Assembly (NCBI RefSeq): GCF_000010525.1
Contig: NC_009937.1
Location: 811,501-875,500, forward strand
Direction of reading: 5' to 3'
Source of the DNA: Azorhizobium caulinodans ORS 571
GTDB taxonomy: Bacteria > Pseudomonadota > Alphaproteobacteria > Rhizobiales > Xanthobacteraceae
DNA: 64,000 nucleotides
A model generated the notes under the pieces. That model saw nothing but the letters and a program-made list of their open reading frames with translations. It did not search any database and was not told the origin of the DNA. Both the position numbers and the translations under genes were made by a program. Positions 23,636-31,120 of the stretch are shown piece by piece. The first letter of the stretch is position 1, and each line of letters starts with the position of its first letter.

Positions 23636-25336
23636 TCAGCCCTGCAGGCTCGGCTCGGGTGAGATGACGATGCGATTGCGGCCGGAATTCTTGGCCTCGT
23701 AGAGGGCAAGGTCCGCGCGCTCGATCACCTTGTGCATGTCGCGGTCCTGATCGTGCGCCAGTGCAGCGCCGATGGAGATGGTGACGGCGATGGCCTGATC
23801 CTCGAAGACCACCTTTGTCGCCGCCACCGCCTCGCGCACCCGCTCCGCCAGGGCCTGCATGCCGGCGATGTCGGTATCCTGAAGCAGGGCCACGAATTCC
23901 TCGCCACCGAAGCGGGCGAGATGGTCGTGTGCGCGCAGGGTTCTGACGAAGGTGTCCGCCACATGCTTCAGCACGGCGTCGCCGGCGGCATGCCCGTAGG
24001 TGTCGTTCACCTGCTTGAAGTGGTCGATGTCAGCCATGAGGATGCCGAGCTGGCCCGTGGCATGGGCACTATCCAGCGCCACATCCGCCATGGCGAGGAA
24101 GGAGCGCCGGTTGAGCAGGCCGGTCAGCGGATCGGTATCCGCCAGTTCCTTCAGTGCCGCCACATCCTGCTCGTGCTTGCGGCTGAACATCTCATAGCGC
24201 GTCTCGGCCGAGGTCAGGCGCCGCAGGAGCGAGCGCAGGGCGTAGGAGAGGTGCATCACGTCCGCATTGCCGCGCAGGCGCGGCAGCATCGTGATCTTGG
24301 GGTCGCGGCCGATTTCCTCCGCGGCGAGGGCGAGCTGGCGCAGCGGGCGGCCCAGCCGCCGGGCGAACCACAGCGTGAGGCCGACGCACACCAGCAGCGC
24401 GATGGCGCCGTAGCCGATGATGCGGAATGCGACGTGATAGGCTGAGGCGAAGGCATCCTCTGCCGGCTGCTGGGCGACCACGATCCAGCCGAAGCCCGGG
24501 AAGTCCTGCTCGCCGTCGGAGATCGCATAACCCGTCAGGAGGTCGCCTGCCGGGCTCTTCTGGACGAAGGCACCGGTGCGGGTCACGGACATCCGCGCGA
24601 TTCGATCCTTCGTAAAGGGCGTATCGCCACGTTCGGGGCCGAGCAGGACGATGCCTTCGGAGGACATCACCACGATATTCACGCCCGGCTGGGCCTTGAG
24701 AACCGTGTCGCGCAGGCCCTCGACCCAGCGGAAATAAAGATGCGCGCCCAGCACGCCGAGCAGGCGACCGTCCCGCGAGTGAACCGGAAAGGCGATATCG
24801 ACGAAGCGCTCCGGATCGCCGGTCGCGCCGAGATTGGGGAGGAGCTTCGCCAGCAGCACGGCCTCGTGCAGATCGCCGACCGTGGGGCCTTTCAAACCAT
24901 CCCGGAACCATGGGCGGGAGAAGACGGACGTGCCCTCCAGCATGCCTTGCGTCGCCGCCACCACCTGGCCGTCGGGGCGGGCAAAGCCGATCCAGGCGAA
25001 ATGGCGCATGCCGGACTGGGCCTGGTTCAGCGCCGCGCGCAGCAGGGCGGCATCGCCCTCCCAGGCGATGTCCAGGGCCCGCAACTGCGCCAGATTCCGC
25101 ACCTCGCGGTAGCGCTCGAACATGTCCACGTCCAGCCGGTCCGCGATGGTCGCGGCGGTGAGGGACATGTTCTGCTGGATGCGTTCGGCGATCGCCCACC
25201 CGCTCAGGCGGGCGGAGAAGATGGACACGACGATCAGGCCCAGGATGCACACCACGCTCAGCACCACGCCGAGCTGCTGGGCGATACTGGTGCTGTCCTG
25301 GAGCTTATGGAGCCTGTGCCGCAGGGCTTCTCGCAC
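23636..25336 (-). CDS. Membrane diguanylate cyclase with periplasmic dCache-like sensor
   Basis: 566 residues. A membrane helix at about 22-46 and another near 300-322 enclose a periplasmic sensor of the double-Cache type. A HAMP-like linker and a short coil lead to a GGDEF domain. The active site reads GGEEF, which is a functional variant. RAHD five residues upstream matches the RxxD product-inhibition site, so c-di-GMP feedback is likely. The enzyme makes c-di-GMP from two GTP and usually promotes surface attachment. The GTG start at 25336 has AAAGGACC upstream. Divergent from the MarR gene. Confidence 0.92.
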   Translation of the reverse strand: MREALRHRLHKLQDSTSIAQQLGVVLSVVCILGLIVVSIFSARLSGWAIAERIQQNMSLTAATIADRLDVDMFERYREVRNLAQLRALDIAWEGDAALLRAALNQAQSGMRHFAWIGFARPDGQVVAATQGMLEGTSVFSRPWFRDGLKGPTVGDLHEAVLLAKLLPNLGATGDPERFVDIAFPVHSRDGRLLGVLGAHLYFRWVEGLRDTVLKAQPGVNIVVMSSEGIVLLGPERGDTPFTKDRIARMSVTRTGAFVQKSPAGDLLTGYAISDGEQDFPGFGWIVVAQQPAEDAFASAYHVAFRIIGYGAIALLVCVGLTLWFARRLGRPLRQLALAAEEIGRDPKITMLPRLRGNADVMHLSYALRSLLRRLTSAETRYEMFSRKHEQDVAALKELADTDPLTGLLNRRSFLAMADVALDSAHATGQLGILMADIDHFKQVNDTYGHAAGDAVLKHVADTFVRTLRAHDHLARFGGEEFVALLQDTDIAGMQALAERVREAVAATKVVFEDQAIAVTISIGAALAHDQDRDMHKVIERADLALYEAKNSGRNRIVISPEPSLQG

Positions 25337-25550: not shown

Positions 25551-25997
25551 ATGTCTGAGACTCCGTTGGGATTTCTTTTCTTCGAGGTGTCGCGGCTCTA
25601 CCGGGCGCGCACGGACCGTGCGTTCGAGCAGGGCGGCCTCGGCATCACCTCCGGTGAGGCCCGCACGCTGATCTACATCAATCAGCATCCGGGCCTGCGC
25701 CAGACGGCTCTTGCCGAGAAGATGAGCGTCGAGCCCATGACGCTGGTGGCTTCTCTCGATCGTCTCGAGGCGCAGAGCCTCGTGAAGCGCGAGCCCGATC
25801 CCACCGACCGCCGGGCGAAACGCGTTCTGCTGACGCCGGCCGCCGCGCCGCTGATCGCGCGCATCACCTCCATCGCGCTCGCCGCGCGGGAGGAAATCCT
25901 CAACGGCCTCTCGGAAGACCAGATCGCCAATTTCAGGACCGCCCTCGACCGGATGCGCGTGAACCTGGTGGCGGGGAGAGATGCGGACGACGCATGA
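25551..25997 (+). CDS. MarR family transcriptional regulator
   Basis: 148 residues, the usual MarR size. The winged helix includes RQTALAEKMSVEPMTLVASLDRLEAQSLV and the wing carries DPTDRRAKRV, the conserved DxRxKR-type segment. ATG 25551 follows GGGGGAG; the open frame starts earlier at 25416 without support. The stop overlaps the start of the exporter gene by 4 bases (ATGA), so the two are translationally coupled. The expected role is ligand-released repression of its own operon with the exporter. Confidence 0.92.
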   Translation: MSETPLGFLFFEVSRLYRARTDRAFEQGGLGITSGEARTLIYINQHPGLRQTALAEKMSVEPMTLVASLDRLEAQSLVKREPDPTDRRAKRVLLTPAAAPLIARITSIALAAREEILNGLSEDQIANFRTALDRMRVNLVAGRDADDA

Positions 25998-27292
25998 AGC
26001 CAGTGATGAGTGAAAGCCGCACGGCGGTCATCGGTGCGATGATCGTCGTGCTGGGGCCGATCAGCATGTCGCTCTACACACCGGCCATGCCGGCGCTGGT
26101 GGAGGCCTTTCACACCACGCCGGCCCTGTTGAAGCTCACGCTCTCCGTCTATTTCTTCGGCTTCGCCTTTTCCCAGCTCGCCTGCGGGCCGCTCTCCGAT
26201 GCCTTCGGGCGGCGGCCCACGGCGCTCGGCTTCTTCGCCATCTATCTGGCGGGCAGCGTGGTGGCGGCCTTCGCGCCGGACATCACCGCGCTGATCATCG
26301 GCCGCGGCCTTCAGGGGATCGGCGTGGCTGCGGGCCCCGCCGTCTCCCGTGCCATCGTGCGCGACCAGTTCACCGGCCAGCCGTCCGCCCGCATCATGAA
26401 CCTGATCGCCACCATGCTGGCGATCGGGCCCGCCATCGCCCCGACGCTCGGCGGCCTCATCCTCTCGACCGTGGGCTGGTCGGCCATCTTTCTCGTGATG
26501 GTGATCTATGGCCTCGTGCTCGTGCTGCTGCTGGCGGTCCTTGTACCGGAGACCAATGCGGCCCCGCTGCGGGCCAACGCCCATCCGGCCACGGTTGCCC
26601 GCAATTATGGGACGCTGCTGTCGGACCGGCGCTTTCTCCAGCCGAGCCTGGTGATCGGTTTCACGCTCGGCGGCATCTATACGCTCGCTGCCATCCTGCC
26701 CTTCGTGCTCATCGAGCGGGTGGGCCTCTCGCCCATCGGCTTCGGCATCGCCATGATCTGCCAAACCGGCTCGTTCATGACGGGCTCGCTGGTCACCGGC
26801 CGGCTGCTCAGGCGCTTCAAGGCGGAGGCACTGGTGCCCTTCGGCCTCGCTATCGTGCTGGCGGCGGCGGTCGGCATGGCCTTCGCGACCCGCCTGTGGC
26901 CCCTCTCGGCGGTGGCCACCATGCTGCCGGTGGCGGTCTGGGCCTTCGGCATCGCCGTGCTGCTGCCCGGCGGCACCACGGGCGCGCTCGCCAATTTCCC
27001 GAGGATGGCCGGTGCGGCTTCCGCCATGATGGGCTTCATGCAGATCGGCGGCGGACTGCTGGGCACCATGCTGGCGAGTGCCTTCGCGGTGCCCGGCGAC
27101 GCGCTGGTGATCGTGGTGCCGGGTCTCGCGGCGGCTGCGCTCGTCGCCTTTGTCTTGCTGCGACCGGCGGAGCCGTCCCGCGTGGCGGCCCGCATCAGCG
27201 AGCCGGATCTCGAGATCTCCACGGACCCCGCCGGCATCGTCGGCGCTGCAGGCGACGAGATCGAGGCCGAGGTCTTCCGCAAGCGCGCCTGA
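25994..27292 (+). CDS. MFS drug exporter, Bcr/CflA family
   Basis: Inner-membrane proton antiporter, 432 residues with about 12 membrane helices. The loop 2-3 motif reads GPLSDAFGRRPTAL, and motif C-like glycines occur in the fifth helix (AIGPAIAPTLGG). The N-terminal SLYTPAMPALVEAF is typical of the Bcr/CflA group (bicyclomycin and chloramphenicol-type efflux). A C-terminal acidic tail of about 35 residues follows the last helix. Coupled to the marR-type gene by ATGA overlap, which supports a substrate-inducible efflux operon. Confidence 0.9.
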   Translation: MKPVMSESRTAVIGAMIVVLGPISMSLYTPAMPALVEAFHTTPALLKLTLSVYFFGFAFSQLACGPLSDAFGRRPTALGFFAIYLAGSVVAAFAPDITALIIGRGLQGIGVAAGPAVSRAIVRDQFTGQPSARIMNLIATMLAIGPAIAPTLGGLILSTVGWSAIFLVMVIYGLVLVLLLAVLVPETNAAPLRANAHPATVARNYGTLLSDRRFLQPSLVIGFTLGGIYTLAAILPFVLIERVGLSPIGFGIAMICQTGSFMTGSLVTGRLLRRFKAEALVPFGLAIVLAAAVGMAFATRLWPLSAVATMLPVAVWAFGIAVLLPGGTTGALANFPRMAGAASAMMGFMQIGGGLLGTMLASAFAVPGDALVIVVPGLAAAALVAFVLLRPAEPSRVAARISEPDLEISTDPAGIVGAAGDEIEAEVFRKRA

Positions 27293-27347: not shown

Positions 27348-29831
27348 CTACTTCAGTTCGATCTTGTACATCTGCGTGAGGCAGTTGCCCGGCTTGCCGT
27401 CCTTGAGCCGGAAGGCCCACTGGTACGACTGCTCGGGAATTTCCTGGCCGTTGATGCGCAGCGTCAGCGTGCCCGTGCACACCGGCCCCTTGCGGCTGTC
27501 GATCTGCACCAGAAGGGTATTCTCCCCCTCCTTCAGCAAGGGTTTGATCGCGACCCAGCGGCTGCGCAGCGAACCCTCCGCGATCGCCACCAGCTCGCCG
27601 TTCAGCGTGATTCGCATGCTGTCCTGCACATGCTCGGCGAGCAGTTCCGCGCTCCGGATGTTCTTGAACACCATCGGGTCGGGTTTGCACATCACACCGG
27701 CGGTGCTGCAGGCCTGCGAGGAAATGGTCTCGCGCATCATAAAGGCGCCGCCGGCGAGCCCGCCACCGACCACGACGACGCTGCCGCCGACGATCGCCAG
27801 CGTCTTGACCGACGGCTTCTTGAACTTGAGGCCGAATTTCCCCTTGGCCGTCGGTGCCGCCTCGTCCGTCTTCGCGGACGGGGCGGGCATGGGAGGCGGA
27901 GCGGCCTTGGCTTTCGCCTTCGACTTGCGGAAGGACGGCAGTTTCAGCTTGGGCAGGCCAAACTTCGGCAGCCGCAGCCATTTGCGCTTGGGCTTGGCCT
28001 TGACGGGTTCCGGTGCCGGGGCGGGCGGCTCCAGCATGTCCGGCATGGGTGGAAAGGCCGGCGCATCGTCATCGGCGTCGTCCGCCGGATCAGCTGCGGC
28101 GCGCTTGCTCTCCTCCGGGGGCGTCGCCTCGGCGGGGGCGACATCGGCCTCCGGCTCTTCCTCTTCGACGACCGGCTCGGGGCCACCGGTGAAGTCACCG
28201 TTGAGAAGCGCGTCCAGTTCCTTCTGGCTGAGCGGCTTGCCCGCACGTCCCGCGGCGTCCTCCGGCTTCGGCTCGGCCTTCTTGCGCGGCGGCGGCGAGA
28301 AGCCGTCGTCCATCAGCGCATCCAGCTCCTTCTGGGAGAGGGGCTTATCGGACTTCGGGGCGGGCGCTTCGTCTTCGACCTTCTTCTTGCGCGGCGGCGG
28401 CGAGAAGCCGTCGTCCATCAGCGCATCCAGCTCCTTCTGGCTGAGCGGCTTGTCGGACTTCGGGGCGGGAGCTTCGTCCTCCGTCTTCTTCTTGCGTGGC
28501 GGCGGCGAGAAGCCGTCGTCCATCAGCGCATCCAGCTCCTTCTGGCTGAGCGGCTTGTCGGACTTCGGGGCGGGAGCTTCGTCCTCCGCCTTCTTCTTGC
28601 GTGGCGGCGGCGAGAAGCCGTCGTCCATCAGCGCGTCCAGCTCTTTCTGGCTGAGGGGCTTGTCGGACTTCGGTGCCGGGGCCTCGTCCTCCGCCTTCTT
28701 CTTGCGCGGTGGCGGTGAGAAGCCGTCGTCCATCAGCGCGTCCAGCTCCTTCTGGCTGAGCGGCTTATCGGACTTCGGGGCGGGCGCGGGTTCCTCGACC
28801 TTCTTGCGCGGGGGCGGGGAGAAGCCGCCATCCATCAGCGCATCGAGCTCTTTCTGGCTGAGCGGCTTGTCGGACTTCGGTGCCGGGGCTTCCTCGGCCT
28901 TAGGCTCGGGCTTCTTGCGCGGCGGCGGCGAGAAGCCGCCATCCATCAGCGCATCCAACTCCTTCTGGGAGAGGGGCTTATCGGACTTCGGGGCAGGCGC
29001 GGGCTCTTCGGCCTTGGGTTCTGGCTTCTTACGCGGGGGCGGCGAGAAGCCGCCATCCATCAGCGCATCCAGCTCCTTTTGGGAGAGGGGCTTATCGGAC
29101 TTCGGGGCAGGCGCGGGGTCTTCGGCCTTGGGCTCGGGCTTCTTGCGCGGCGGCGGGGAGAAGCCGTCGTCCATCAGCGCATCCAGCTCCTTTTGGGAGA
29201 GGGGCTTGTCGGACTTCGGTGCGGGGGCTTCCTCGGCCTTGGGCTCTGGCTTCTTGCGCGGCGGCGGCGAGAAGCCGTCGTCCATCAGAGCGTCCAGCTC
29301 CTTCTGAGAGAGGGGCTTGTCGGACTTCGGTGCGGGGGCTTCCTCGGCCTTGGGCTCCGGCTTCTTGCGCGGGGGCGGGGAGAAGCCGCCATCCATCAGC
29401 GCATCCAGCTCTTTCTGGCTGAGCGGCTTGTCGGATTTCGGGGCGGGCTTGGGCGCCGGCTTGGGCTTGGGTTCCGGTTCGAACTTGCGGCGCGGCGGCG
29501 GGCTGAAGCCCTCGTCCAGGAGCGCCTTCAGGCTCTTCTTGCTGAGCGGAACATAGTTCGAATCGCCCTGATCGCCGCCGTCGCCCTCGTCGGGATCTTC
29601 CGGAGCGGTGCCGTCCGGCGACGCTGCGGTCGCGTCGGAGCCGGAGGCCTTGGTGTCGTCAACGGCGAAATGGCGGGCCGGCCCTTCGGCACGGAGGGCG
29701 TCCATGGCGAGCGACATCGCTCGCTTGAGCCAGGAGGGCAGGCCAAAACGCGGCAGCCGGAGCGTAGGCTCCGGCAGCCAGAACGTGAACTGGTACTCCC
29801 TCAGCGAAGCGACGCTGGAGGTCACCGCCAT
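27348..29831 (-). CDS. Membrane protein with 13 tandem FliM-like LSQKELDAL repeats
   Basis: 827 residues, no family that I recognise. Residues 1-90: a basic, Trp/Leu/Pro-rich segment (LRLPRFGLPSW, about 24-34) then an acidic linker. Residues 95-547: one degenerate and twelve near-exact copies of a 34-38 residue unit, each KPLSQKELDAL-MDxGFSPPPRKK followed by a Pro/Glu/Lys linker. The last copy reads LSQKELDALLNGD, very close to the CheY-P-binding N-terminus of FliM. Residues 548-610: acidic. Residues 618-636: a second basic segment (WLRLPKFGLPKLKLPSF). Residues 678-698: one membrane helix. Residues 699-827: C-terminal domain with four Cys (708, 715, 785, 817), probably disulfide-bonded in the periplasm. 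Lys-rich flanks before the helix support cytoplasmic repeats. Function unknown. Confidence 0.85.
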   Translation of the reverse strand: MAVTSSVASLREYQFTFWLPEPTLRLPRFGLPSWLKRAMSLAMDALRAEGPARHFAVDDTKASGSDATAASPDGTAPEDPDEGDGGDQGDSNYVPLSKKSLKALLDEGFSPPPRRKFEPEPKPKPAPKPAPKSDKPLSQKELDALMDGGFSPPPRKKPEPKAEEAPAPKSDKPLSQKELDALMDDGFSPPPRKKPEPKAEEAPAPKSDKPLSQKELDALMDDGFSPPPRKKPEPKAEDPAPAPKSDKPLSQKELDALMDGGFSPPPRKKPEPKAEEPAPAPKSDKPLSQKELDALMDGGFSPPPRKKPEPKAEEAPAPKSDKPLSQKELDALMDGGFSPPPRKKVEEPAPAPKSDKPLSQKELDALMDDGFSPPPRKKKAEDEAPAPKSDKPLSQKELDALMDDGFSPPPRKKKAEDEAPAPKSDKPLSQKELDALMDDGFSPPPRKKKTEDEAPAPKSDKPLSQKELDALMDDGFSPPPRKKKVEDEAPAPKSDKPLSQKELDALMDDGFSPPPRKKAEPKPEDAAGRAGKPLSQKELDALLNGDFTGGPEPVVEEEEPEADVAPAEATPPEESKRAAADPADDADDDAPAFPPMPDMLEPPAPAPEPVKAKPKRKWLRLPKFGLPKLKLPSFRKSKAKAKAAPPPMPAPSAKTDEAAPTAKGKFGLKFKKPSVKTLAIVGGSVVVVGGGLAGGAFMMRETISSQACSTAGVMCKPDPMVFKNIRSAELLAEHVQDSMRITLNGELVAIAEGSLRSRWVAIKPLLKEGENTLLVQIDSRKGPVCTGTLTLRINGQEIPEQSYQWAFRLKDGKPGNCLTQMYKIELK
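28191..29549. repeat. In-frame tandem repeat array, 13 units of about 102-114 bp
   Basis: The array encodes residues 95-547 of the repeat protein. Four consecutive units (residues 356-495) are 105 bp each and differ by single codons. Units in residues 135-321 are 111-114 bp with a PEPKAEE linker. The unit at 322-355 is shortest. The core coding LSQKELDAL is almost invariant, while linkers drift. All length changes are multiples of three, as expected under selection for the reading frame. Confidence 0.92.

Positions 29832-29893: not shown

Positions 29894-31120
<1,227 letters not shown>

Follow-up and report, generated by a model that had tools for sequence, protein, structure and literature searches.

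The 64,000-nucleotide stretch of DNA analysed here (the window), which covers positions 811501-875500 of the single-contig genome (5,369,772 bases) of the stem-nodulating bacterium Azorhizobium caulinodans ORS 571, contains a gene for a predicted single-pass membrane protein with thirteen tandem copies of a short peptide. The repeated peptide is under selection, its motif recurs convincingly in only one other place of the genome, the tail of CheZ, the gene is restricted to the genus Azorhizobium, and the array has been replaced between sister species. Judging from sequence, we regard it as a real possibility, with somewhat less than an even chance, that the protein is an inner-membrane scaffold carrying a species-specific multivalent array, which in A. 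caulinodans would reversibly capture phosphorylated CheY (CheY~P) in a multivalent manner.

The open reading frame at 27348-29831 on the minus strand starts with ATG, is translated into 827 amino acids without an internal stop and displays a coding-like GC content by codon position (0.68/0.48/0.87); it is a genuine gene. It lies 62 bases downstream of argG (29894-31120, minus strand) and is convergent with the gene of an MFS transporter (25994-27292, plus strand). The locus in A. doebereinerae is organized in the same way, with argG, the MFS transporter and a diguanylate cyclase around the orthologue; argG is a conserved upstream neighbour, mentioned for context only. In the window the diguanylate cyclase, which possesses a Cache-like sensor region, occupies 23636-25336 (minus strand). 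No chemotaxis gene adjoins the array gene.

The motif copies start at residues 96, 137, 174, 211, 249, 287, 324, 358, 393, 428, 463, 498 and 534, that is, 34-41 residues apart. The first copy, VPLSKKSLKALLDEGFSPPPRRK (29484-29552, minus strand), is degenerate and is the sole one with a recognisable counterpart at the equivalent place in A. oxalatiphilum (SKRSLKALLDEGFSPPPVKK). It is followed by 11 near-identical copies of KPLSQKELDALMD[D/G]GFSPPPRKK (28278-29429, minus strand), joined by linkers of 11-15 residues composed of P, K, E and A, the repeat-unit peptide being KPLSQKELDALMDDGFSPPPRKK. The last copy, KPLSQKELDALLNGDF (28191-28238, minus strand), reads KPLSQKELDALLNGDFTGGP (short form LSQKELDALLNGDF) and is the nearest of all copies to the FliM consensus. 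The sequence-only reading had reported twelve near-exact copies and a degenerate one; the thirteen tandem copies, one of them degenerate, were recovered, and the near-exact ones were reduced to 11, since the second half of the last copy differs. At the DNA level, TRF detected the array at 28207-29448 with a period of 105-111 bp and 85-88% matches. Pairwise comparison of the 11 near-exact copies placed 244 of 342 differences at third codon positions, vs 40 and 58 at the other two, with a pN/pS of 0.10; the copies thus differ mostly silently, which indicates that the repeat peptide is under selection. A single-sequence AlphaFold model of the first four copies contained four short helices, one per copy, separated by unstructured linkers (pLDDT 64, a modest confidence), so that the array is predicted to be a string of short helices on a disordered chain.

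Orthologues were found at the same place in A. doebereinerae and A. oxalatiphilum, with the membrane helix and the periplasmic domain retained (52-56% identity of the domain) and with different arrays. In the A. doebereinerae orthologue (L007:6922-9417, minus strand) the unit, built around DPFDFSKANRERRLAAEAKRAAAEAAAKA (DPFDFSKANRERR...), is exactly 48 residues long and occurs at least 10 times; these copies are extremely constrained (pN/pS 0.02). In the A. oxalatiphilum orthologue (L008:7015-9598, minus strand) at least 18 units of 20-22 residues follow the consensus VSASIDDGFSPPPRKK, i.e., K/D-VSA[S/D]I[D/N]DGFSPPPRKK; this array is broken by an assembly N run and its pN/pS varies between 0.25 and 0.40 by segment. 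It also contains two DDMDALIA[QE]MEAKEAKA copies and retains one KKDLDALIDEGFSPPPRKK copy along with the SLKALLDEGFSPPP copy. The latter two point to an ancestral unit that was probably [S/D]L[K/D]AL[L/I]DEGFSPPP, the SQxELDAL form having presumably spread later in A. caulinodans. Different arrays in the same gene of sister species look like a tether with the bait swapped between species.

The possibility that the array has no specific partner and acts as a stretchable charged spacer or a crowding bristle, expanded by slippage and important for its bulk properties alone, agrees with the P/K/E/A-rich linkers and with the different array sequences that sister species carry at the same place. Against it, a peptide that stays fixed while the silent sites have diverged (pN/pS as given above for A. 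caulinodans and A. doebereinerae) implies a constraint on the exact sequence in at least two species, and gene conversion alone is insufficient to produce copies whose silent sites differ around a fixed peptide. We consider this possibility unlikely.

The repeat had been described in the sequence-only reading as similar to the CheY-binding N-terminus of FliM, and a search of the unit against FliM N-terminal profiles had been proposed there. The array did match the N-terminal positions of the NCBIfam models of FliY (positions 3-42, summed E 3.5e-6) and FliM (positions 3-35, summed E 5.5e-5), both sums being helped by repetition, as no copy is significant alone. Among the arrays of the three species such a match was limited to A. 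caulinodans; the arrays of A. doebereinerae and A. oxalatiphilum matched neither profile and include no SQxELDAL-type array. Neither the FliM middle domain nor the SpoA (FliN-like) domain was matched in the 827-residue protein with Pfam and NCBIfam, the scores being far under the family cut-offs. A six-frame search of the whole A. caulinodans genome at the DNA level with the pattern S/T-Q-x-[DE]-h-D-x-L-h yielded 14 places, of which 12 are in the array gene, one is the CheZ C-terminus (VSQDDIDSLFA) and one belongs to a frame of 89 codons; the reversed pattern, used as a control, had no matches in this genome. The 89-codon frame is not gene-like and was set aside, leaving two convincing places, the array copies and the CheZ tail. 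The C-terminal docking-tail motif S-Q-x-[DE]-h-D-x-L-h in 12 copies is a shared motif and does not signify CheZ membership: Pfam detected no CheZ domain in the 827-residue protein, and cheZ is a separate gene (G000:C1:693661). The usual N-terminus of FliM is LSQxEIDALLNG; that of the A. caulinodans FliM, MNAAHSHQDIRDMLLDAAG, contains no such motif and does not match the repeat unit, so that the FliM-like reading holds only in part and the array is better described as CheZ-tail-like. As a separate observation, the CheZ-tail profile assigns a score of 15 to the C-terminus, LNQEFVDDILPR, of the FliM encoded at G000:C1:714240-714794 (L006, minus strand), whose N-terminus is devoid of the usual peptide.

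The likeness to the CheZ tail was quantified with a profile built from 36 distinct non-Azorhizobium alphaproteobacterial CheZ tails. On this profile the repeat obtained 11.5 bits, the corresponding values being 17.5 for the last copy, 34.0 for the organism's own CheZ, 27.9 for E. coli FliM and 23.8 for E. coli CheZ; 11.5 bits were reached by 5 of 192,194 background windows, and 14 of 20,000 shuffled units equalled the repeat. With SQ followed by K, L in place of I and M in place of F, the repeat is a weak match to the docking consensus, and Lys after SQ occurs in none of the 36 tails. On the receiving side, D57 is conserved in CheY1, whose gene adjoins cheZ. The docking face of CheY has eight listed residues (A90, K92, I95, A99, Y106, V108, K119 and K122; PMC8225110), of which CheY1 retains A90, Y106, V108 and K119, the positions of K92, I95, A99 and K122 being occupied by S, V, K and T, respectively.

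The FliM N-terminus is identical and the CheZ tail (VVSQDDIDSLF) unchanged in all three species, and both sister species retain FliM, CheZ and the adjacent CheY. Since the arrays nevertheless differ, CheY docking, if this is the job of the array, would be species-specific. The same comparison bears on the proposal that the envelope-anchored scaffold serves a partner other than CheY, such as a protein of cell polarity, of the cell wall or of the flagellum, or the scaffold itself, the D-x-GFSPPPRKK half being the recognition element and the CheY-like helix a capping-box accident; we find this nearly as likely as CheY~P capture, again with somewhat less than an even chance. The D-x-GFSPPPRKK half, which is common to the arrays of A. 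caulinodans and A. oxalatiphilum, lies outside the CheY-docking core, and the helix half is not common to them; the copy recognisable in both species, SLKALLDEGFSPPP, lacks SQxE and D; and the A. doebereinerae unit is wholly different and under even stronger selection. A best PDB hit of the unit to SF3b155 (LSDEELDAMF, E 0.38, the only one obtained) represents a similar capping-box helix with no link to CheY and warns that this helix type is common. A precedent exists in HubP/FimV, which have a peptidoglycan-binding domain in the periplasm, one membrane helix and, in the cytoplasm, disordered repeats that vary in composition and copy number between close species (PMC12918733). A partner other than CheY leaves unexplained, on the other hand, why the CheZ tail is the one other place in the genome that has the motif, as well as the match to the FliM/FliY profiles.

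The array protein shares with HubP/FimV a periplasmic domain (perhaps glycan-binding), one helix and long variable cytoplasmic repeats, but its chain order is opposite and its repeats are not mainly acidic. Pfam scans detected no LysM in it, giving weak matches to GH2 sugar-binding-like domains instead, and in place of the C-terminal TPR/FimV domain it ends with a predicted periplasmic beta-sandwich. With no LysM, no TPR and a reversed order, it is not a HubP.

Hydropathy analysis revealed one hydrophobic segment, the single predicted transmembrane helix (residues about 675-699; VKTLAIVGGSVVVVGGGLAGGAFMM, 27735-27809, minus strand), preceded by a basic juxtamembrane stretch (KWLRLPKFGLPKLKLPSFRKSKAKAKA ... 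KKPSVK, 27810-27980, minus strand) that would be cytoplasmic by the positive-inside rule. The C-terminal domain of ca. 128 residues (27351-27734, minus strand) was modelled as a beta-sandwich (pLDDT 79). Cys 708, 715, 785 and 817, invariant across the three Azorhizobium species, all lie on the C-side of the helix, and the periplasmic sandwich is probably held by disulphides. Its resemblance to GH2 sugar-binding domains is weak and stayed under the threshold whether sequences or folds were compared (24.3 bits against a cut-off of 27 for Pfam PF22666; GH2 enzymes on top in Foldseek, E 0.014, TM 0.3-0.4). The single membrane helix, the basic flank and the four Cys were thus found as the sequence-only reading had claimed, and with the flank inside and the Cys outside, the predicted topology favours cytoplasmic repeats. 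Export of the N-terminal part, which would make the array a surface or periplasmic repeat, would agree with its proline/lysine-rich composition, such repeats being common in TonB-like and surface proteins. Yet no N-terminal signal was seen in the 827-residue protein, and the basic stretch that precedes its sole membrane helix and the four invariant Cys that follow it both speak against export, which we regard as very improbable.

Under the reading of CheY~P capture, the periplasmic C-terminal beta-sandwich would anchor the scaffold in the envelope, and the long disordered cytoplasmic tail would present a short helical docking peptide in many copies. The peptide differs by species and in A. caulinodans resembles the CheZ-tail helix and the FliM/FliY N-termini. 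CheY~P would be captured reversibly at the membrane, in a local sink, buffer or tether competing with CheZ and the motor; in A. caulinodans, the polar location of CheZ does not depend on CheA (PMC7750401). The narrower proposal of an approximately 12-valent membrane-anchored CheY~P trap (a sink or a localiser), arisen in one species by an array swap on a genus-specific scaffold, with the sister species catching other partners on the same chassis, is a tentative one, which we hold to be rather doubtful. Binding of CheY~P would make the array a sink fixed at the membrane, whose dozen sites compete with the motor and the phosphatase, a kind of signal shaping that is absent from the literature searched. 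Even with another partner, one scaffold bears three different peptide arrays in three sister species, with clear selection at the protein level on two or more of them, and forms a small natural experiment on the origin and replacement of multivalent docking arrays.

Among the closest known systems is the CheZ docking tail (VSQDDIDSLF in A. caulinodans, ASQDQVDDLLDSLGF in E. coli), which shares with the array the SQ-x-x-h-D-x-L-h pattern and the placement of a short helix on a flexible tail; the trailing GF of the E. coli tail recurs in the array unit, and some alphaproteobacterial CheZs have two copies. Unlike CheZ, the array protein has neither the four-helix bundle nor the phosphatase motif (DxxxQ), carries 13 copies with Lys after SQ and is membrane-anchored. 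The N-terminal CheY-binding peptide of FliM/FliY (LSQAEIDALLNGD in E. coli FliM) is comparable with the last copy, which reads LSQKELDALLNGD, but the array protein has no FliM/FliY domain and the A. caulinodans FliM has no such peptide.

The periplasmic domain was detected in 3 of 300 family genomes, all of Azorhizobium, and a scan of the genome collection with the C-terminal domain retrieved nothing beyond the two sister species; a match of this part in one further genome (G036) was a FliL-like membrane helix and was rejected. Homologues in genomes lacking CheY and flagella, which the sequence-only reading had named as contrary evidence, were not encountered; since FliM, CheZ and CheY are present in each of the three carriers, a test by CheY-less homologues has no force. 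No paper describing the array protein was found in the open-access literature, where absence is not proof. An array search of 387 class genomes matched a single other genome (G094), through a CheZ with two such motifs in a P/A-rich tail; CheZ tails in the family and the class read ASQDDIDALF, VSQADIDALF and similar. When the phylum was searched with an idealised docking array, no further membrane protein of this kind emerged; the loci opened comprised the CheZ of G094, linkers of CheA proteins and one FliM, the remainder being unrelated or low-complexity frames. Pfam matches of the array to Phage_TAC_6, TY-Chap3 and Frankia_peptide, as well as PHROG matches, were summed over the repeats with no single significant stretch and were not taken as homology. 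Among the PHROG families, phrog_31201 and phrog_8774 fit the repeat helix when scores are summed, and some phage proteins may begin with an LSQxELDAL-type peptide. Four alphaproteobacterial CheZs (L016, L105, L110 and L116) have two CheY-docking-like motifs in their P/A-rich tails (e.g., AQDEVDKLM ... SQADIDALF). Two CheA proteins (L125 and L127) bear three tandem [DE]EF[DE]xLLDxLH-like helices (EFxxLLDxLH) in the P/A-rich linker after P1, an arrangement of helical peptides in a chemotaxis protein that is reminiscent of the array, although these CheAs, unlike the array protein, are cytoplasmic kinases.
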